Part shown: positions 5,053 through 14,606 of the stretch, piece by piece
Numbering within the stretch: position 1 is the first letter of the stretch
Layout of the letters: every line of letters starts with the position of its first letter
DNA from: Dehalococcoidia bacterium
Lineage (GTDB): Bacteria > Chloroflexota > Dehalococcoidia > Lucifugimonadales > GCA-002694895
Direction: 5' to 3'
NCBI GenBank assembly: GCA_029936815.1
Contig: JAPYRX010000008.1
Location: 1 to 64,000 of the forward strand
Length of the DNA stretch: 64,000 nt
Program-made: the position numbers and the translations under genes
Notes under the pieces: generated by a model
Database searches by the model: none
Told to the model about the DNA's origin: nothing
What the model saw: only the letters and a program-made list of their open reading frames with translations

Positions 5053-5616
5053 TCACAGATTTAAAAAATTTAATAAAATTTCTTCTCCAAAATCAGTACC
5101 TATTGATTCAGGATGAAATTGTATACCATACATAGGAAAAGTTTTATGTGAAATACCCATAACTAATTCATCTTCAGTCCATGCTATTTTTTCGAAATCT
5201 TTGTGTAAGGATTGTTCATTAATTATTAAAGAATGATATCGCATAGCATTGAAGGGATCTGGCACTCCAGCAAATATTTCATTATCATTATGACGTATTA
5301 AAGAAGTTTTACCATGGAAAATCACTGGAGCTTTTTCTATGTCTGAATCAAAAGTATAACCTATAACTTGATGGCCTAAACAAATACCAAGTATAGGAGT
5401 GTTCGGCCCGAATTCTTTAATTACATCGCTACAAATACCTGAATTTTTAGGGTGTGAGGGGCCTGGAGAAATTATTATTTTATCTGGATTCAAATCACGA
5501 ATTTCATCTAATGAAATACAATCATTTCTGTATACAACAGTATCTTTGAAATGATTAGCTACAATCTGATAAATGTTATAAGTAAAACTATCGTAATTAT
5601 CTAATATTAATATCAT
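5053..5616 (-). CDS. trpG: Anthranilate synthase component II (glutamine amidotransferase)
   Basis: This 187-residue class I glutamine amidotransferase supplies ammonia to TrpE. The triad is visible: the nucleophile Cys in GICLGHQ near residue 80, and His/Glu in GIQFHPES near the C-terminus. The N-terminal DNYDSFTYN motif is typical for TrpG/PabA. Proteins of this family can also serve folate synthesis as PabA, but the position between trpE and trpD supports TrpG. Its start overlaps the end of trpE by 1 nt. Confidence 0.94.
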   Translation of the reverse strand: MILILDNYDSFTYNIYQIVANHFKDTVVYRNDCISLDEIRDLNPDKIIISPGPSHPKNSGICSDVIKEFGPNTPILGICLGHQVIGYTFDSDIEKAPVIFHGKTSLIRHNDNEIFAGVPDPFNAMRYHSLIINEQSLHKDFEKIAWTEDELVMGISHKTFPMYGIQFHPESIGTDFGEEILLNFLNL

Positions 5617-7052
5617 TATATATATGGAAGCTCCTCTTCCTCTGCAATTTCAATTGCTTTTATAACTGCTTGAGCCTTATGTAAATGTTCTTCAAATTCT
5701 AATTTCGGAATACTATCGTATACAATTCCTCCGCCAGATTGTACGGATGCTATTCCATTTTTAATTAGTAATGTTCTAAGCGTTATGCAAACCTCTATAT
5801 TGCCAAAGAAATCAAACAATCCTAAAGCTCCTGCGTAGGGTCCTCTTTTGTCATTCTCTAAATCAGATATGATTTGCATTGCCCTAATTTTCGGCGCCCC
5901 TGACACAGTTCCTGCTGGAAAGCATGCTTTGAAAACCTCTAAAGCTGAAACATCTTTTCTTTTTTTTCCAGTAACTTTAGATACTATATGCATAACATGT
6001 GAGAATTTTTTGATATCCATATATTCGACAACTTCTACCGAGCCAGGTTCGCTAACTCTTCCTACATCATTTCGAGCTAAATCTAACAACATGATATGTT
6101 CAGCATTTTCTTTTGGATCTGATAACAATTCATGTTCAATTTCTATATCTTCATCAACTGTATCACCTCTTCTTCTAGTTCCAGCGATCGGAACAGAAGT
6201 GATTGCTTGATCCTCTACTTGAACAAGCAATTCAGGAGATGCCCCTACCACATAATGATCATCTAAATCCATGTAATACATAAATGGAGATGGATTTACA
6301 GATCTCAAAGCGCGGTAAATCATAAATGGGTGTGCAGATGTTTTCTTGGAAATCCTTCTTGAAAAAACAGCTTGAATTATTTCACCTTCTTCAATATATT
6401 TTTTGATTTTCTTAACATTGTTTTCAAAATCATTTTTAGAAATATTTTCCTTTGAATTAAATTCATTAGTATCAGATGATTTTGTATAAACTTTTGATTT
6501 TTCTGAATTCAATCTATTTTGAATGTCATCAATTTTTTCATATGTCAAATCGTATACTTCTCGACTAGAACCTTTAGAACAATCTGCGTAAGAGACTATA
6601 TATAATTTATGTTTCAAATGATCATACACAAGAAAATCTGTAACAAATAAAAAACATGCTTCTGGTAGGTCTAATCCATTATTATCAGGTAATTCAATTC
6701 CATCAAAATATTTCACAGAATCATAAGATACATATCCTACTAATCCTCCAAAAAATCTCTCCAACCATTCTGGTTTAATTATATTAATGTCAAGGAGTTC
6801 AGTAATTAAGTTTATTGGGTTATCATCAAATAAAGCAAATTTTTCATATCCACCTAACCCTATAAAACTGTATCTACCAATAGTTTCTCCACCTTCAATA
6901 CTTTCCAATAAAAATGAGTTTTTCCCGTTAGATACTTTCAAAAAAATTGACACAGGCGTTTCAAGGTCTAAATATAATTCTCTACCCAGTGCAATATAAC
7001 TTTTGTGGTCAAATTTTGAATTGAATTCCTCAAAATCTACTATGTTTTTCAT
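5616..7052 (-). CDS. trpE: Anthranilate synthase component I
   Basis: This 478-residue chorismate-utilising enzyme makes anthranilate with TrpG. An N-terminal LLES motif (near residue 48), which in characterised TrpE proteins belongs to the tryptophan feedback site, is present. The chorismate-binding half carries PIAGTRRRG, DLARND and FPAGTVSGAPK motifs in the usual order. Overlap with trpG suggests coupled translation of the two subunits. The LLES motif implies allosteric control in addition to the T-box upstream. Confidence 0.96.
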   Translation of the reverse strand: MKNIVDFEEFNSKFDHKSYIALGRELYLDLETPVSIFLKVSNGKNSFLLESIEGGETIGRYSFIGLGGYEKFALFDDNPINLITELLDINIIKPEWLERFFGGLVGYVSYDSVKYFDGIELPDNNGLDLPEACFLFVTDFLVYDHLKHKLYIVSYADCSKGSSREVYDLTYEKIDDIQNRLNSEKSKVYTKSSDTNEFNSKENISKNDFENNVKKIKKYIEEGEIIQAVFSRRISKKTSAHPFMIYRALRSVNPSPFMYYMDLDDHYVVGASPELLVQVEDQAITSVPIAGTRRRGDTVDEDIEIEHELLSDPKENAEHIMLLDLARNDVGRVSEPGSVEVVEYMDIKKFSHVMHIVSKVTGKKRKDVSALEVFKACFPAGTVSGAPKIRAMQIISDLENDKRGPYAGALGLFDFFGNIEVCITLRTLLIKNGIASVQSGGGIVYDSIPKLEFEEHLHKAQAVIKAIEIAEEEELPYI

Positions 7053-9569: not shown

Positions 9570-10934
9570 TCATGAAGCTCTTTCATACTGGATTTTGAAT
9601 CCATTATTATCTACATAAACTTTATTAATAAAATTTAATTTCAATTCATCTTTAGCTAATATTGAATCAAGGTTAATTTCATATTTAACAGATTTTTGTA
9701 TCTGTTTGTAATGAATTAAATATAATTTAAGTACATCAACGCCGATTTTTCCTTTTGAAGTATTAATCAAAGCATCTTTAAATAATTTTCTCGCATTAAG
9801 AACGGCATTATTTCTTTTAAGTTTTATTTTTTTTAAAATTGTCGGGAGCTTTTTTGTGTAATTTACTCTACGAGTTAAAAGATCTTTGTCAAATTTAGAT
9901 ATAAACTTTCTTTCGAAATTTTCTGCAGAAATCGAACTAGATTCACAATGACCTGAATTTTGTTTTTTGGAGCATTTATAATATCTATATTTTTTTTTAT
10001 TTAAATTAGTATTGTTGACATACTTAATCTTTTTTGTAACTCCAATCATCTTAGAGTCACAAAAATTACAATATAAAATACTCGACAACAAATAATTCTC
10101 AACATCTATACTAGTTCTAACAGGCCTACGAAGATATAATTTCTTTTGTGCTTCCATATAGATGTGAGTATGTATAGTATTAGGATGCGAATTAGGAATA
10201 GAAACACCAAATCTTTTAGAAGTCCCTATATAAACAGGATTTTTTACCAAATTATAAACAGTAGATATATTCCATAAATTATTCTTCTTTGTTTTATATT
10301 TTTTTTCATTTAAAATTTTAGTTATTTTTCGAATACCCAATTCTTGGTTAACATATAAATCAAAAATTTCTTTAACGATTGTTGATTCTTTCACATTAAT
10401 AGTTAAATAACCATTAGAATTCAATTCGTACCCAAATGGTAATCTACCCATCCATTTACCCGTGGCAAATTTATTTTTCATTTTTGTAGAAATAAAAGAT
10501 GACCATTGAAGATTATCATTATTCTTGTATAGATATCTTTGAACTGTATCTTGGTATGGGTCCGGATTTTCTTCATCGACACACAATACTTTACATTTAT
10601 AGTCTTCAAACCAAATTAAATTCTCAATGATTTCTTCGATAGATCGACCTAGATCAGAAGAATTTTTTATTACTACCAAATATTTTTTGTTATTTAATTT
10701 AATATCTTTGCGTAATTTTTCAAATTCACTAAAAATAGATAATCTAGTCATACTATTATCAACATATGTTTCAATTTCAGTATGATCATTAAGATAACAA
10801 TAATTTTTTAATATCTGATTATATTCATCTTTAAAATTTTTCCCATGTTTATTTTCATGTAAAAAATATCCAACTGCTTGCATTTGTATTGTTTTGTATT
10901 TGAATTGGTAAATATTTATTAGACTCTTTTTCAT
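9570..10934 (-). CDS. Serine-recombinase-like protein, catalytic serine apparently missing
   Basis: This 454-residue protein has the layout of a large serine recombinase. An N-terminal resolvase-like region is followed by a Recombinase domain (the GKWMGRLPFGY segment near residue 165), a zinc-ribbon-like part (CNFCDSKM near 295, later CSKKQNSGHC) and a C-terminal tail. In active family members the N-terminus reads YxRxS with the nucleophilic serine. Here the same place reads GYFLHEN, and the usual DRxxR segment reads SSDLGRS. Catalysis is therefore doubtful and a DNA-binding or structural role is possible. It converges on the CoA-transferase and is divergent from cysS. No flanking att-like repeats were seen. 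Confidence 0.75.
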   Translation of the reverse strand: MKKSLINIYQFKYKTIQMQAVGYFLHENKHGKNFKDEYNQILKNYCYLNDHTEIETYVDNSMTRLSIFSEFEKLRKDIKLNNKKYLVVIKNSSDLGRSIEEIIENLIWFEDYKCKVLCVDEENPDPYQDTVQRYLYKNNDNLQWSSFISTKMKNKFATGKWMGRLPFGYELNSNGYLTINVKESTIVKEIFDLYVNQELGIRKITKILNEKKYKTKKNNLWNISTVYNLVKNPVYIGTSKRFGVSIPNSHPNTIHTHIYMEAQKKLYLRRPVRTSIDVENYLLSSILYCNFCDSKMIGVTKKIKYVNNTNLNKKKYRYYKCSKKQNSGHCESSSISAENFERKFISKFDKDLLTRRVNYTKKLPTILKKIKLKRNNAVLNARKLFKDALINTSKGKIGVDVLKLYLIHYKQIQKSVKYEINLDSILAKDELKLNFINKVYVDNNGFKIQYERAS

Positions 10935-11001: not shown

Positions 11002-13179
11002 ATGAAAAATCTTTTACTATTTAACACACTTAGTAAAAAAATTGAAACATTTAAATCTATAGGCGAAACTGTAAAAATATATACGTGTGGACCTACAGTA
11101 TACAGAGATGCGCACATAGGGAATATGAGAACTTATATTTTAGCTGATGTATTGAAAAAAACATTGAGTCATTTAGGGTATAAAGTTATTCATGTAAAAA
11201 ATATCACAGACGTTGGTCACATGAGACAAGAAATGTTAGAACAAGGCGAAGACAAAATAGTTGCTGCAGCTATAAGAGAAGGAAAATCCGCAAAAGATAT
11301 CGCCTCTAATTATACAGAGAAATTTTTTGCAGACGAAAAAAAATTGAACATTTCAAAAGCCGACTTCAATCCCAAAGCAACAGAACATATCGATGAAATG
11401 TTAAATATGATAGATAAACTGGTAAAAAAGAAAATTGCATATGTAAATAATGCTAATGTCTATTTTGATATTACAAAATTCAAAAACTATGGAAAATTAT
11501 CTGGAAATATTGCGAATTTATCTACATTAAATAATAATGTAGAGATTGATCCAAGCAAATTAAATCCTAATGATTTTGCATTATGGAAATCTGCAGATAA
11601 AGACAGAGAATTGATTTGGGATAGTAAATATGGACCAGGGTTCCCCGGTTGGCATATTGAATGTTCTGCTATGTCACAAAAATACCTCGGGGAACATTTT
11701 GACATACATACAGGAGGAGTAGACAATATTTTTCCTCATCACGAAGGAGAGATAGCTCAAAGTGAAAGCATTTTTAACAGCAAACATGTGAATTACTGGA
11801 TACACGGACAGCACTTGTTGTCTGAAGGAATCAAAATGTCTAAATCAAAACAAAATGAGTATTTGATTGCCGATATTTTTGAAAGATCAATTGATCCTTT
11901 AGCTTTTAGATATCTATGCTTAATGACAAATTACAGAACAAAATTAAATTTTACTTTTTCATCATTAAAATCAGCTCAAAAAGGCTTAAATAAATTAAGA
12001 CACAAATATTGGATTTTTAAAAGTTCAAATGAAAAAATCAATCAAAACAAAACACATTCATGGTTCGAAAAAATTGATGATGAATTAATTAATAACCTAA
12101 ATACTTCTAAAGTTCTTTCATTGCTGTGGAAATTAACAAAATCAGATCTTAACGGATCTGAAATATGTCATATATTTGAGTACATAGACCCTATAATATG
12201 CCTAGATTTCAAAACACATTATGAGGAAAAAAATAATCATACAATCCCGACTGAAGAATATAAAACAAGAAAAACATTAAGAATAAATAAAGACTACTTA
12301 AATTCAGATTCTATCAGATCAGATTCGAAAACTAATACAAAATTAAAGTACTACGATAATAAAAATGGTGACTACTCTGTAAAAAAATTATCAGAATATG
12401 AAAATTTTAACCATAACAAATATATTTCAGGATCTGTTGATATCAAATCTAATTTGTTTAGTATAAGTAAATTTGATTTATCAATAGGGATTGTAGTAGA
12501 TGAATATATTGAAGATTTTGAAAGATGTATAGATTCAATAATAAAATTTATCCCTGAAAATTTAAGCTATGAAATATTAATAGCACTTAACGGCACTACA
12601 GATTTACAAAATCAAAATCTGAAAAACAGACACTCAAACAATCCAAATTTATTTTTCATTGCAATTGATCCAGTATGTGGAGCAGGATCAGTTCGAAATA
12701 TATTAATTAAAAAAGCATTAGGTAAGAATATATTTTTAATTGATACTAGCTTAGAAATAACTGGGGATATTTTCAATTCTATTTTAATTGACCTGAAAAA
12801 TATAAATATTGGTATGATAGGTCCGTATGGGCTGAAAACCAATGATTTGCATCATTTTCACGAAATTTCCGAATCAAAAGAATATGTAGATGCGATTCAA
12901 TTATATTTAATGGCTTTCAGAAGAGAAATTATTAACTGGTCTGGATTATTTAGGGAAAATTTCAGATTTTATAGAAATTTGGATATAGATTTTTCATTTC
13001 AAATCAAAAATGCTAAGTTAAAATTATTATCAAATCCTGATTTAGAAATAATAAGACATGACCATAGCGTATGGGAGAACACACATCCTAAAACTCGTGA
13101 TGAATTAAGTAAAGATAACTACAAGAGATTTTTAGACAAATGGAAAGATTACAAACATTTGCTTAATAACGCAAAATGA
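11002..13179 (+). CDS. cysS: Cysteinyl-tRNA synthetase fused to a GT2-like glycosyltransferase domain
   Basis: Residues 1 to about 450 are a complete class I cysteinyl-tRNA synthetase: CGPTVYRDAHIGN at the N-terminus (zinc Cys and HIGH-type motif), WHIECSA and PHHEGE (further zinc ligands), KMSKSK near residue 278, and a C-terminal helical segment (KTRKTLR, then SDSIRSDS) resembling the usual CysS end. After a low-complexity linker, residues about 490-720 look like a family 2 glycosyltransferase: SIGIVVDEYIEDFERCIDSI, EILIALNGTTD and a GAGSVRN segment. Where active GT2 enzymes have D-D/D-x-D, this reads LIDTSLE, so transferase activity is uncertain. Bacterial CysS is normally about 460-500 residues; this is 725 with no interruption. 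The next gene overlaps by 4 nt. Confidence 0.9.
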   Translation: MKNLLLFNTLSKKIETFKSIGETVKIYTCGPTVYRDAHIGNMRTYILADVLKKTLSHLGYKVIHVKNITDVGHMRQEMLEQGEDKIVAAAIREGKSAKDIASNYTEKFFADEKKLNISKADFNPKATEHIDEMLNMIDKLVKKKIAYVNNANVYFDITKFKNYGKLSGNIANLSTLNNNVEIDPSKLNPNDFALWKSADKDRELIWDSKYGPGFPGWHIECSAMSQKYLGEHFDIHTGGVDNIFPHHEGEIAQSESIFNSKHVNYWIHGQHLLSEGIKMSKSKQNEYLIADIFERSIDPLAFRYLCLMTNYRTKLNFTFSSLKSAQKGLNKLRHKYWIFKSSNEKINQNKTHSWFEKIDDELINNLNTSKVLSLLWKLTKSDLNGSEICHIFEYIDPIICLDFKTHYEEKNNHTIPTEEYKTRKTLRINKDYLNSDSIRSDSKTNTKLKYYDNKNGDYSVKKLSEYENFNHNKYISGSVDIKSNLFSISKFDLSIGIVVDEYIEDFERCIDSIIKFIPENLSYEILIALNGTTDLQNQNLKNRHSNNPNLFFIAIDPVCGAGSVRNILIKKALGKNIFLIDTSLEITGDIFNSILIDLKNINIGMIGPYGLKTNDLHHFHEISESKEYVDAIQLYLMAFRREIINWSGLFRENFRFYRNLDIDFSFQIKNAKLKLLSNPDLEIIRHDHSVWENTHPKTRDELSKDNYKRFLDKWKDYKHLLNNAK

Positions 13180-14606
13180 AACTTTTAGTTAATGCTAAAA
13201 TTTTTAGTTCTAAAAGGCCTCAATCTATATTAATCCAAAATGAAAAAATAATTTTCATAGGTGATTTCAAAGATATAAATATATCAAATGATTCATTAGA
13301 AATAATAGATTGTAAAAACAATTCAGTCTTACCTGGCTTCATCGATGGTCATTGTCATCCTTTTGAGACAATATCAAATTTAAGTAGTATAGATTTATCA
13401 AACGAATCATTCAGATCAAAAAATGATATATACAATTTTTTCAATAATTTAAAATTTAACCAAGATCTCAAATTATTGAAATTCCATGGTTTTGAGCATA
13501 GATATTTAAATTCTGATTTAAGCTTAAAATTTTTTGATGACTTAAATATTAATATTCCATTAATAATTAAACATCGAACCGGGCATCTTATTTTTACGAA
13601 TTCACTCGCAATGAAATATGCAAAATTAAATATAAAAAACCTGGAATATCCAATAAATTCTATGGAAATACACAAGAAATTTTCAGATTTATCTTCAGAA
13701 AATTACTATTATAATTTAAAAATTTACAATAGTAATTTAATAAAATTTGGATATACCACAATAGTAGATGCGGGGGCATCAAATGATATTTTAAAGTTCG
13801 AAAAATATCAGGAATTAAAATCCGCGAAATCTCTATCTCCGAACATATGTTTTATGATTGGAAGTAATCACATAAATGAATTTCAAAATATAAATAATAA
13901 TAAAGAATTATTTATTGGCCCAACAAAATTCATGATTAATGAATATCTTGATATTTTAGAAATAGAAAATTTACTCAAAAAACATTTGATTTACTCAAAA
14001 AACGATATCGCATTTCACGCAATAAGTTCAGAAATGATTTTCAAAATAATTCACATATTATATGAAAAATTATCAATACTCTTGTCTGATAGAAATATAC
14101 GATTAGAGCATGCTACTGAGTTCATACCTGAATTTTATTTAAAATATCAATCAAAAAACTTATTTTTAATTTACAATCCAAATTTCATTTATGATCATGG
14201 TGATTTTTATATAGAGAATCAAGACGAATTTGAAATCGGAAGTTTATTTAATTTAGCTGAAAGCATGAATAAAGGATATAATGTCGGTCTTGGAACAGAT
14301 GCCCCTTTCGGAAATTACAATCCGTTCAGAATGATTTTCACAGCGTTAAATAGAATCACAAAAAATAACAAAATAATTAAAAGTGAAACTAAGATTAATA
14401 TTGAAGATATATTAAAATCGTTCTCGATAAATAATGCTAGGGCTATAAATACAAATGGGACAACAGGGTCTGTTAATATAGGTAAAAATGCAGATTTGAT
14501 CATACTGAACAATGATATTAACAGTTTATGTGATGATTCAGAAATATTAAATACAAAAGTGATACATACCATAATCAACGGTAAATCAGAATATAAAAGT
14601 TGCTGA
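13176..14606 (+). CDS. Amidohydrolase (YtcJ-like, Amidohydro_3 family)
   Basis: This 476-residue metal-dependent hydrolase has the N-terminal beta-sandwich strand and FIDGHCHPFE metal motif near residue 58, HR-GH near 125, a RLEHATE segment near 308 and the GLGTDAPF aspartate motif near 370. It ends with the usual second beta-sandwich part (GKNADLIIL). The substrate is not predictable. It starts inside the last codons of cysS-GT (4-nt overlap), so the two are probably cotranslated. Its end forms half of a terminator shared with the convergent prenyl synthase gene. Confidence 0.85.
   Translation: MKLLVNAKIFSSKRPQSILIQNEKIIFIGDFKDINISNDSLEIIDCKNNSVLPGFIDGHCHPFETISNLSSIDLSNESFRSKNDIYNFFNNLKFNQDLKLLKFHGFEHRYLNSDLSLKFFDDLNINIPLIIKHRTGHLIFTNSLAMKYAKLNIKNLEYPINSMEIHKKFSDLSSENYYYNLKIYNSNLIKFGYTTIVDAGASNDILKFEKYQELKSAKSLSPNICFMIGSNHINEFQNINNNKELFIGPTKFMINEYLDILEIENLLKKHLIYSKNDIAFHAISSEMIFKIIHILYEKLSILLSDRNIRLEHATEFIPEFYLKYQSKNLFLIYNPNFIYDHGDFYIENQDEFEIGSLFNLAESMNKGYNVGLGTDAPFGNYNPFRMIFTALNRITKNNKIIKSETKINIEDILKSFSINNARAINTNGTTGSVNIGKNADLIILNNDINSLCDDSEILNTKVIHTIINGKSEYKSC

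Follow-up and report, generated by a model that had tools for sequence, protein, structure and literature searches.

A conserved fusion of a second cysteinyl-tRNA synthetase with a GT-A glycosyltransferase domain in Chloroflexota, possibly acting on tRNA-Cys

Sugar-bearing tRNA nucleotides are few, with animal mannosyl- and galactosyl-queuosine as the best-known examples. According to a passage of PMC12518689, the queuosine-tRNA glycosyltransferases QTMAN and QTGAL act on the queuosine of tRNA-Asp and tRNA-Tyr. On the synthetase side, E. coli cysteinyl-tRNA synthetase (CysRS, encoded by cysS) contacts G34 via Arg423, Arg427, Trp432 and Asp436, as stated in a passage of PMC12684709 that cites Hauenstein 2004, and for cysteine, MshC (the mycothiol cysteine ligase) and CysRS* of Desulfobacterales are named in a review on paralogous synthetases (PMC9437257). 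In the present work, a stretch of 64,000 nucleotides from Dehalococcoidia bacterium (GCA_029936815.1, contig JAPYRX010000008.1, positions 1-64,000), called the window below, was analysed and a gene at 11002-13179 on the + strand was found to encode a CysRS (CysS) fused to a C-terminal glycosyltransferase (GT) domain. No CysRS-glycosyltransferase fusion was found in a limited search of the open-access literature, which is no proof of absence, and we know of no described synthetase-GT fusion.

The gene runs from ATG to stop in a single frame of 725 codons with no internal stop or frameshift, as the initial annotation had described, and this frame is conserved in three sister species. The features of the gene are given below; dN/dS is the ratio of nonsynonymous to synonymous substitution rates and AF2 stands for AlphaFold2.

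11002..13179, + strand: CysS-GT fusion gene, 725 aa (open reading frame and profile matches; present in 67/147 genomes of the order)
11002..11991, + strand: CysRS catalytic part, residues 1-330 (PF01406, E 1.7e-94; zinc ligands C29, C221, H246 and E250; HIGN 38-41; KMSKS 278-282)
11992..12246, + strand: helical part from the catalytic core to the hairpin, residues 331-415 (TIGR00435 aligns to residue 459; AF2 helices 319-410; dN/dS 0.20-0.45 over residues 331-465)
12247..12390, + strand: anticodon-binding hairpin of CysS_C type, residues ~416-463 (R423, R427, Y432 and D436 match the E. coli G34 contacts; PF23493 in relatives)
12391..12465, + strand: linker between hairpin and GT, residues 464-488 (low AF2 confidence at 464-471; poorly conserved)
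12466..13164, + strand: GT-A / GT2-like domain, residues 489-721 (AF2 pLDDT 94.6; Foldseek matches to GT27/GT2 structures; PF00535 in relatives)
12742..12756, + strand: D581-T-S-L-E585 in the DxD slot (conservation and alignment to solved GT2 enzymes)
12982..12984, + strand: D661, aligned with the ED-motif Asp of GT2 enzymes (conservation and alignment)
13063..13065, + strand: H688, C-terminal His of the GT at the usual position of the third metal ligand (100/100 fusions; putative metal role, from GT-A families)

Over residues 4-459 the protein matched the TIGR00435 cysS model with 399.6 bits (cut-off 340). Residue conservation was counted over 100 fusions: C29, H38, G40 and N41 were kept in 99/99 letters and C221, H246, E250, K278, M279 and K281 in 100/100 fusions. 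The zinc ligands and the HIGN and KMxKS motifs are invariant or nearly so, in agreement with the complete set of CysS signatures recognised at first. The PF00535 (GT2) profile gave 18.8-19.8 bits on the window protein, which is weak compared with the Pfam cut-off of 23.3, and 29.7-74.8 bits in relatives of the same architecture, e.g. 68.9 in a fused protein and 74.8 in a separate gene. The GT domain was modelled by AF2 from an alignment of 40 relatives, with a mean predicted local distance difference test (pLDDT) of 94.6. Comparison of this model with the PDB by Foldseek yielded many GT-A structures at probability 1.00, among them GT27 ppGalNAc transferases (TM-score by query length up to ~0.8), Leptospira 6p61, chondroitin polymerase and RmlT. 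The predicted fold is GT-A, and the C-terminal GT2-like domain of the initial annotation was confirmed by this structural evidence. In the full-length AF2 model, the CysRS is followed by the hairpin, a short stretch of low confidence (464-471) and the GT, and the CysRS part aligned with 1u0b_B (E. coli CysRS with tRNA-Cys) with a TM-score of 0.83 by target length. The low-complexity linker first described between the two domains is mostly the CysRS anticodon-binding hairpin (~416-463), behind which a short, low-confidence linker does exist. The stretch 11002-13179 is a genuine fusion of CysS with a C-terminal GT-A/GT2 domain.

In total, 160 distinct fusion proteins were gathered across the phylum Chloroflexota. 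The fusion is carried by three of the four sister species, with 67-71% identity (the fourth genome is 79% complete); the same recombinase lies alongside in the sister loci, as does the amidohydrolase where the contig extends. By our count of the match table it is present in 67/147 genomes of the order, and it turns up again throughout the class and the phylum, genomes of 4-9 Mb included. Among the best 80 loci of a scan of named genomes, 77 harbor the fusion and 3 are cut off by contig ends; the titles name the SAR202 cluster, Dehalococcoidia or Chloroflexi/Chloroflexota, with the exception of Bacterium HR24. Since several of the fusions are encoded on unbroken contigs measuring 2.3-3.4 Mb (G043, G007, G009, G018, G069, G070 and G129), binning or misassembly does not explain them, and an assembly or binning artefact is also ruled out by the three sister assemblies and by the presence of the fusion in the SAR202 AG-426-M11 genome, whose record title is not marked as a metagenome-assembled genome. 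Between sister species, dN/dS was 0.07-0.09 for the catalytic CysS part, 0.085-0.108 for the GT and 0.20-0.45 for residues 331-465 (three sister pairs, with synonymous changes near saturation in two). As judged from these ratios, both the catalytic CysS part and the GT are under purifying selection, and the region between them changes more quickly. A pseudogene or decaying fusion is ruled out by the residue conservation together with a dN/dS of ~0.1 over the GT.

The window assembly (1.46 Mb, 35 contigs, 90% complete) contains on another contig an ordinary CysS of 457 residues, located directly after ispF-like and ispD-like genes (named by reading), which rules out the fusion as the housekeeping CysS. 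When 59 genomes were checked with TIGR00435 for their CysS complement, a further full-length CysRS was detected in 31/31 fusion genomes, and bulk charging is therefore independent of the fusion. A careful tree of 59 CysS domains was built, as well as a broader one. In the careful tree, all fused CysS domains form a single clade (100/97), nested in a group that we call CysS-II with unfused Chloroflexota sequences; this group is set apart (100/96) from the housekeeping copies and E. coli CysS. In family f123, the unfused CysS-II is the sole full-length CysRS in 4/4 genomes checked, next to a short MshC-like paralogue, implying that the CysS-II clade should be able to charge tRNA-Cys. The fusion of the window is best described as a second, non-housekeeping cysteinyl-tRNA synthetase with predicted charging activity. 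One tRNA-Cys (GCA) was found among the 37 tRNAs of this incomplete genome, and a special second tRNA-Cys was discarded on the basis of this single gene in a 90%-complete genome. Compared with bacterial CysRS (TIGR00435; E. coli CysS, 1U0B), the fusion is alike in its catalytic core, zinc ligands, HIGN/KMSKS motifs and G34-contact hairpin, whereas it possesses an additional C-terminal GT-A domain, has an aliphatic residue at the position of E. coli W458 and coexists with another full-length CysRS. CysRS* is likewise an additional CysRS with a particular function towards tRNA, which for the fusion is predicted; unlike CysRS*, the fusion keeps the hairpin and bears a GT.

Two observations concern the unfused relatives. 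One genome (G160, L281) has a tandem of a canonical CysS and, directly next to it, an unfused CysS-II of 458 aa. A further CysS-like protein, short (mostly 394-425 aa) and devoid of the anticodon hairpin residues, is present in many Chloroflexota; those at L243:4303-5562, L245:17727-19004 and L309-L317 resemble MshC with 310-375 bits, under the cut-off of the model.

Following the survey of relatives suggested by the initial annotation, the fusion was found conserved and the GT was also found as a separate gene, in families f123, f133 and f135 and in part of f132. In these lineages the GT had at first been taken for an ordinary separate domain, and this was corrected when the separate genes proved to carry the hairpin: in 19/19 cases the extension at their N-terminus matches the CysRS C-terminus, and one of the 19 (L176) is a fusion truncated by its contig. 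Pfam CysS_C (PF23493), the anticodon binding domain of cysteinyl-tRNA ligase, matched 3/5 tested separate GTs with 28.2, 32.0 and 25.7 bits (cut-off 23) and the other two more weakly, and GT2 was well above its cut-off behind CysS_C in the tested genes. At the positions contacting G34 in E. coli, R423 is conserved in 156/160 fusions, R427 in 155/160, an aromatic residue at 432 in 157/160 and D436 in 160/160; in the separate genes the corresponding counts are 18/19, 19/19, 19/19 and 19/19. The fusion thus has the anticodon hairpin expected of a CysRS (R423, R427, aromatic 432 and D436), and the short MshC-like paralogues, used as control, have lost the G34-contact residues. At the position of E. 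coli W458, the fused and the separate forms both have an aliphatic residue where unfused CysS mostly has Trp; this speaks for a shared origin of the hairpin-GT unit. A hairpin-GT gene adjoins an unfused CysS-II gene in f135, the two running in opposite orientations; five other f135 genomes have the hairpin-GT, and CysS-II was not found in those five. In the GT tree, the separate genes of f132 lie among the fused ones and those of f123, f133 and f135 form their own clade. These two places make it probable that separation or joining occurred at least twice, with the hairpin accompanying the GT each time. Because the separate genes retain the hairpin with its G34 residues, the conserved unit is the anticodon-binding hairpin plus the GT.

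Another f135 protein (L336:1492-2775, - strand; L331:487-1890) also ends in a CysS_C hairpin, with 29.4 bits in L336; its N-terminal part had no Pfam match.

In the initial annotation, the sequence LIDTSLE had been noticed in place of the DxD metal-binding residues and the domain was supposed to bind rather than transfer a sugar nucleotide. The canonical DxD is indeed missing, with DTS at 581-583, and the motif D-x-S-x-E extends to the whole family. Profile alignment to solved GT2 enzymes places D581 at the first Asp of DxD and S583 at the second and, where the alignment is weak, pairs D661 with the Asp of the K4CP ED motif. The conservation over the 100 fusions is 98% for D556, 100% for G560, 99% for D581, 92% for S583, 95% for E585, 99% for D630 and 100% for Y635, R658, D661 and H688, so that the ED-motif Asp and the C-terminal His are present in 100/100 fusions. 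The supposition of binding without transfer finds no support in the conservation of D581, D661 and H688, the family-wide Ser and the dN/dS of ~0.1. Judging by these residues, the deviation at the DxD slot is a family signature and no decay of the window copy. GT27 enzymes use DxH, and a deviation at this slot is therefore compatible with catalysis. The GT-A domain is probably catalytically working. With the GT2/GT27 enzymes (K4CP, Leptospira 6p61, ppGalNAc-T, RmlT) it shares the predicted GT-A fold, PF00535 as matched above the cut-off in its relatives, the first DxD Asp, the ED Asp and the C-terminal His; it differs from them by D-x-S-x-E instead of DxD and by the CysRS hairpin in front, with 12-22% identity to the solved structures.

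The presence of a tRNA-Cys anticodon reader on a separate GT suggests that a sugar may be put on tRNA-Cys, and with this reader tied to a conserved GT, the simplest reading is that the GT would work on tRNA-Cys. In the proposed mechanism, the hairpin would present tRNA-Cys to the GT domain, which would move a sugar from a nucleotide sugar onto a tRNA nucleotide. The anticodon arm would be the most likely site, as no more than ~25 residues separate the GT from the hairpin. The fused protein should also charge tRNA-Cys, coupling glycosylation with cysteinylation. In three f132 genomes (L248, L249 and L257), the hairpin-GT gene is preceded by a gene for a mannose-1-phosphate guanylyltransferase of ManC type and followed by an oligoendopeptidase-like gene; GDP-mannose as donor is a weak guess from this neighbour. 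Taken as a whole, our best explanation, held at a little under an even chance, is a second CysRS whose attached GT-A is probably functional, in which the hairpin would present tRNA-Cys for glycosylation and the fused form would also charge it. QTMAN and QTGAL are proposed as analogues only, in that they put a sugar on the anticodon loop of one tRNA; tRNA-Cys, in contrast, is not among the queuosine-carrying tRNAs. The initial interpretation is partly supported in this respect: the connection to tRNA-Cys is better supported than the suggested link to the cell envelope, although in another form than modified recognition by the synthetase, the separate GTs themselves carrying the CysRS hairpin. 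For the envelope link no evidence was found, the neighbours being no envelope genes and not conserved outside the order.

Several points weigh against glycosylation of tRNA-Cys. The activity, the substrate and the tRNA modification are all predicted from architecture and residues. Metal-dependent GT-A enzymes do not usually have Ser (or Gly/Asn) as the third DxD residue, the ManC neighbourhood comes from a single family and may be due to chance, and the separate genes may be fission products that retain the hairpin for folding and not for tRNA. Queuosine glycosyltransferases belong to GT families other than GT2, and no RNA-acting GT2 enzymes are known to us.

A related explanation, unlikely in our view and still deserving attention, is that the hairpin merely keeps the GT close to tRNA or ribosomes, or stabilises it after fission, and that the acceptor is a glycan, lipid, protein or small molecule. 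Non-RNA acceptors are usual for GT2 enzymes and no conserved neighbourhood names a tRNA pathway, but the four G34-contact positions are kept in the separate genes and are not obviously needed for folding. It is also rather improbable that the GT-like domain is dead or regulatory, sensing a nucleotide sugar or adding a tRNA-binding surface that tunes the second CysRS. The non-canonical DxS in place of DxD would fit such a role, as would the fact that appended synthetase-tuning domains are common; the conserved D581, D661 and H688 and the dN/dS of ~0.1 favour an active enzyme, and the hairpin-GT occurs in genomes where no CysS-II was found and does not serve that synthetase there.

The remaining explanations give the two domains a common small-molecule or aminoacyl product. 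The CysRS paralogue MshC attaches cysteine to an amino sugar (PMC9437257, PMC2922099), and by analogy with MshA/MshC, the GT could make a glycoside to which the CysS would join cysteine in a pathway for a mycothiol-like, low-molecular-weight thiol. The fusion and MshC are both CysRS paralogues of similar fold outside housekeeping charging. However, the fusion scores 399.6 bits with cysS and 202 bits with the MshC model TIGR03447 (cut-off 485.1), it forms a separate clade and retains the hairpin with the anticodon-binding residues that the examined MshC-like proteins lack, and several fusion genomes also hold a separate MshC-like paralogue. Moreover, MshA is a GT4 and not a GT2 enzyme. We consider this pathway very improbable. 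Glycosylation of the cysteine of Cys-tRNA, to give S-glycosyl-cysteinyl-tRNA for use in translation or in making a secondary metabolite, is hardly to be expected: GT2 S-glycosyltransferases acting on cysteine exist (SunS), and synthetase and GT share one chain here, but the GT is attached at the end that binds the anticodon, remote from the acceptor end, and the hairpin-GT occurs without the synthetase part. The preferred reading is a putative glycosyltransferase directed at tRNA, probably tRNA-Cys, and joined to a second CysRS in most lineages.

The gene is flanked in the window by the following genes.

13176..14606, + strand: amidohydrolase (Amidohydro_3), downstream; stays adjacent in related genomes
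9570..10934, - strand: serine recombinase, divergent to the fusion; adjoins it in many genomes of the order and is considered to lie outside the system

Recurrent neighbours in the order are pyruvate kinase-like, Na/Ca exchanger, NIPSNAP-like and amidohydrolase genes and the divergent recombinase with a CT398-type zinc ribbon (some names by reading); they are not conserved beyond the order. The neighbourhood was discarded as a functional guide, as the recurrent genes point to no pathway. The stop of the fusion and the start of the amidohydrolase overlap by 4 bases (ATGA, 13176-13179), and both may be translated from one transcript. In about half of the loci examined in the order, the serine recombinase is oriented divergently from the fusion, frequently accompanied by the CT398-type zinc-ribbon protein (9570-10934 in the window; clusters c1/c2, e.g. 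L036:4171-5499 and 5506-6228), and it looks more like a resident than a mobile gene.

The fusion belongs with the synthetase paralogues to which a domain from a different enzyme class has been added, and there is a chance of a new tRNA modification. It may represent a bacterial tRNA-Cys glycosyltransferase guided by a CysRS hairpin and often fused to a second CysRS, i.e. a new tRNA modification and a new kind of chimera, which we put forward tentatively and regard as possible rather than probable. Automatic annotation is expected to bury such proteins under 'cysteine--tRNA ligase'. Even without a tRNA role, an ancient, conserved second CysRS bearing a domain of another enzyme class needs explaining; if the proposal is true, a widespread bacterial family would carry out a new modification and couple tRNA charging directly with glycosylation.
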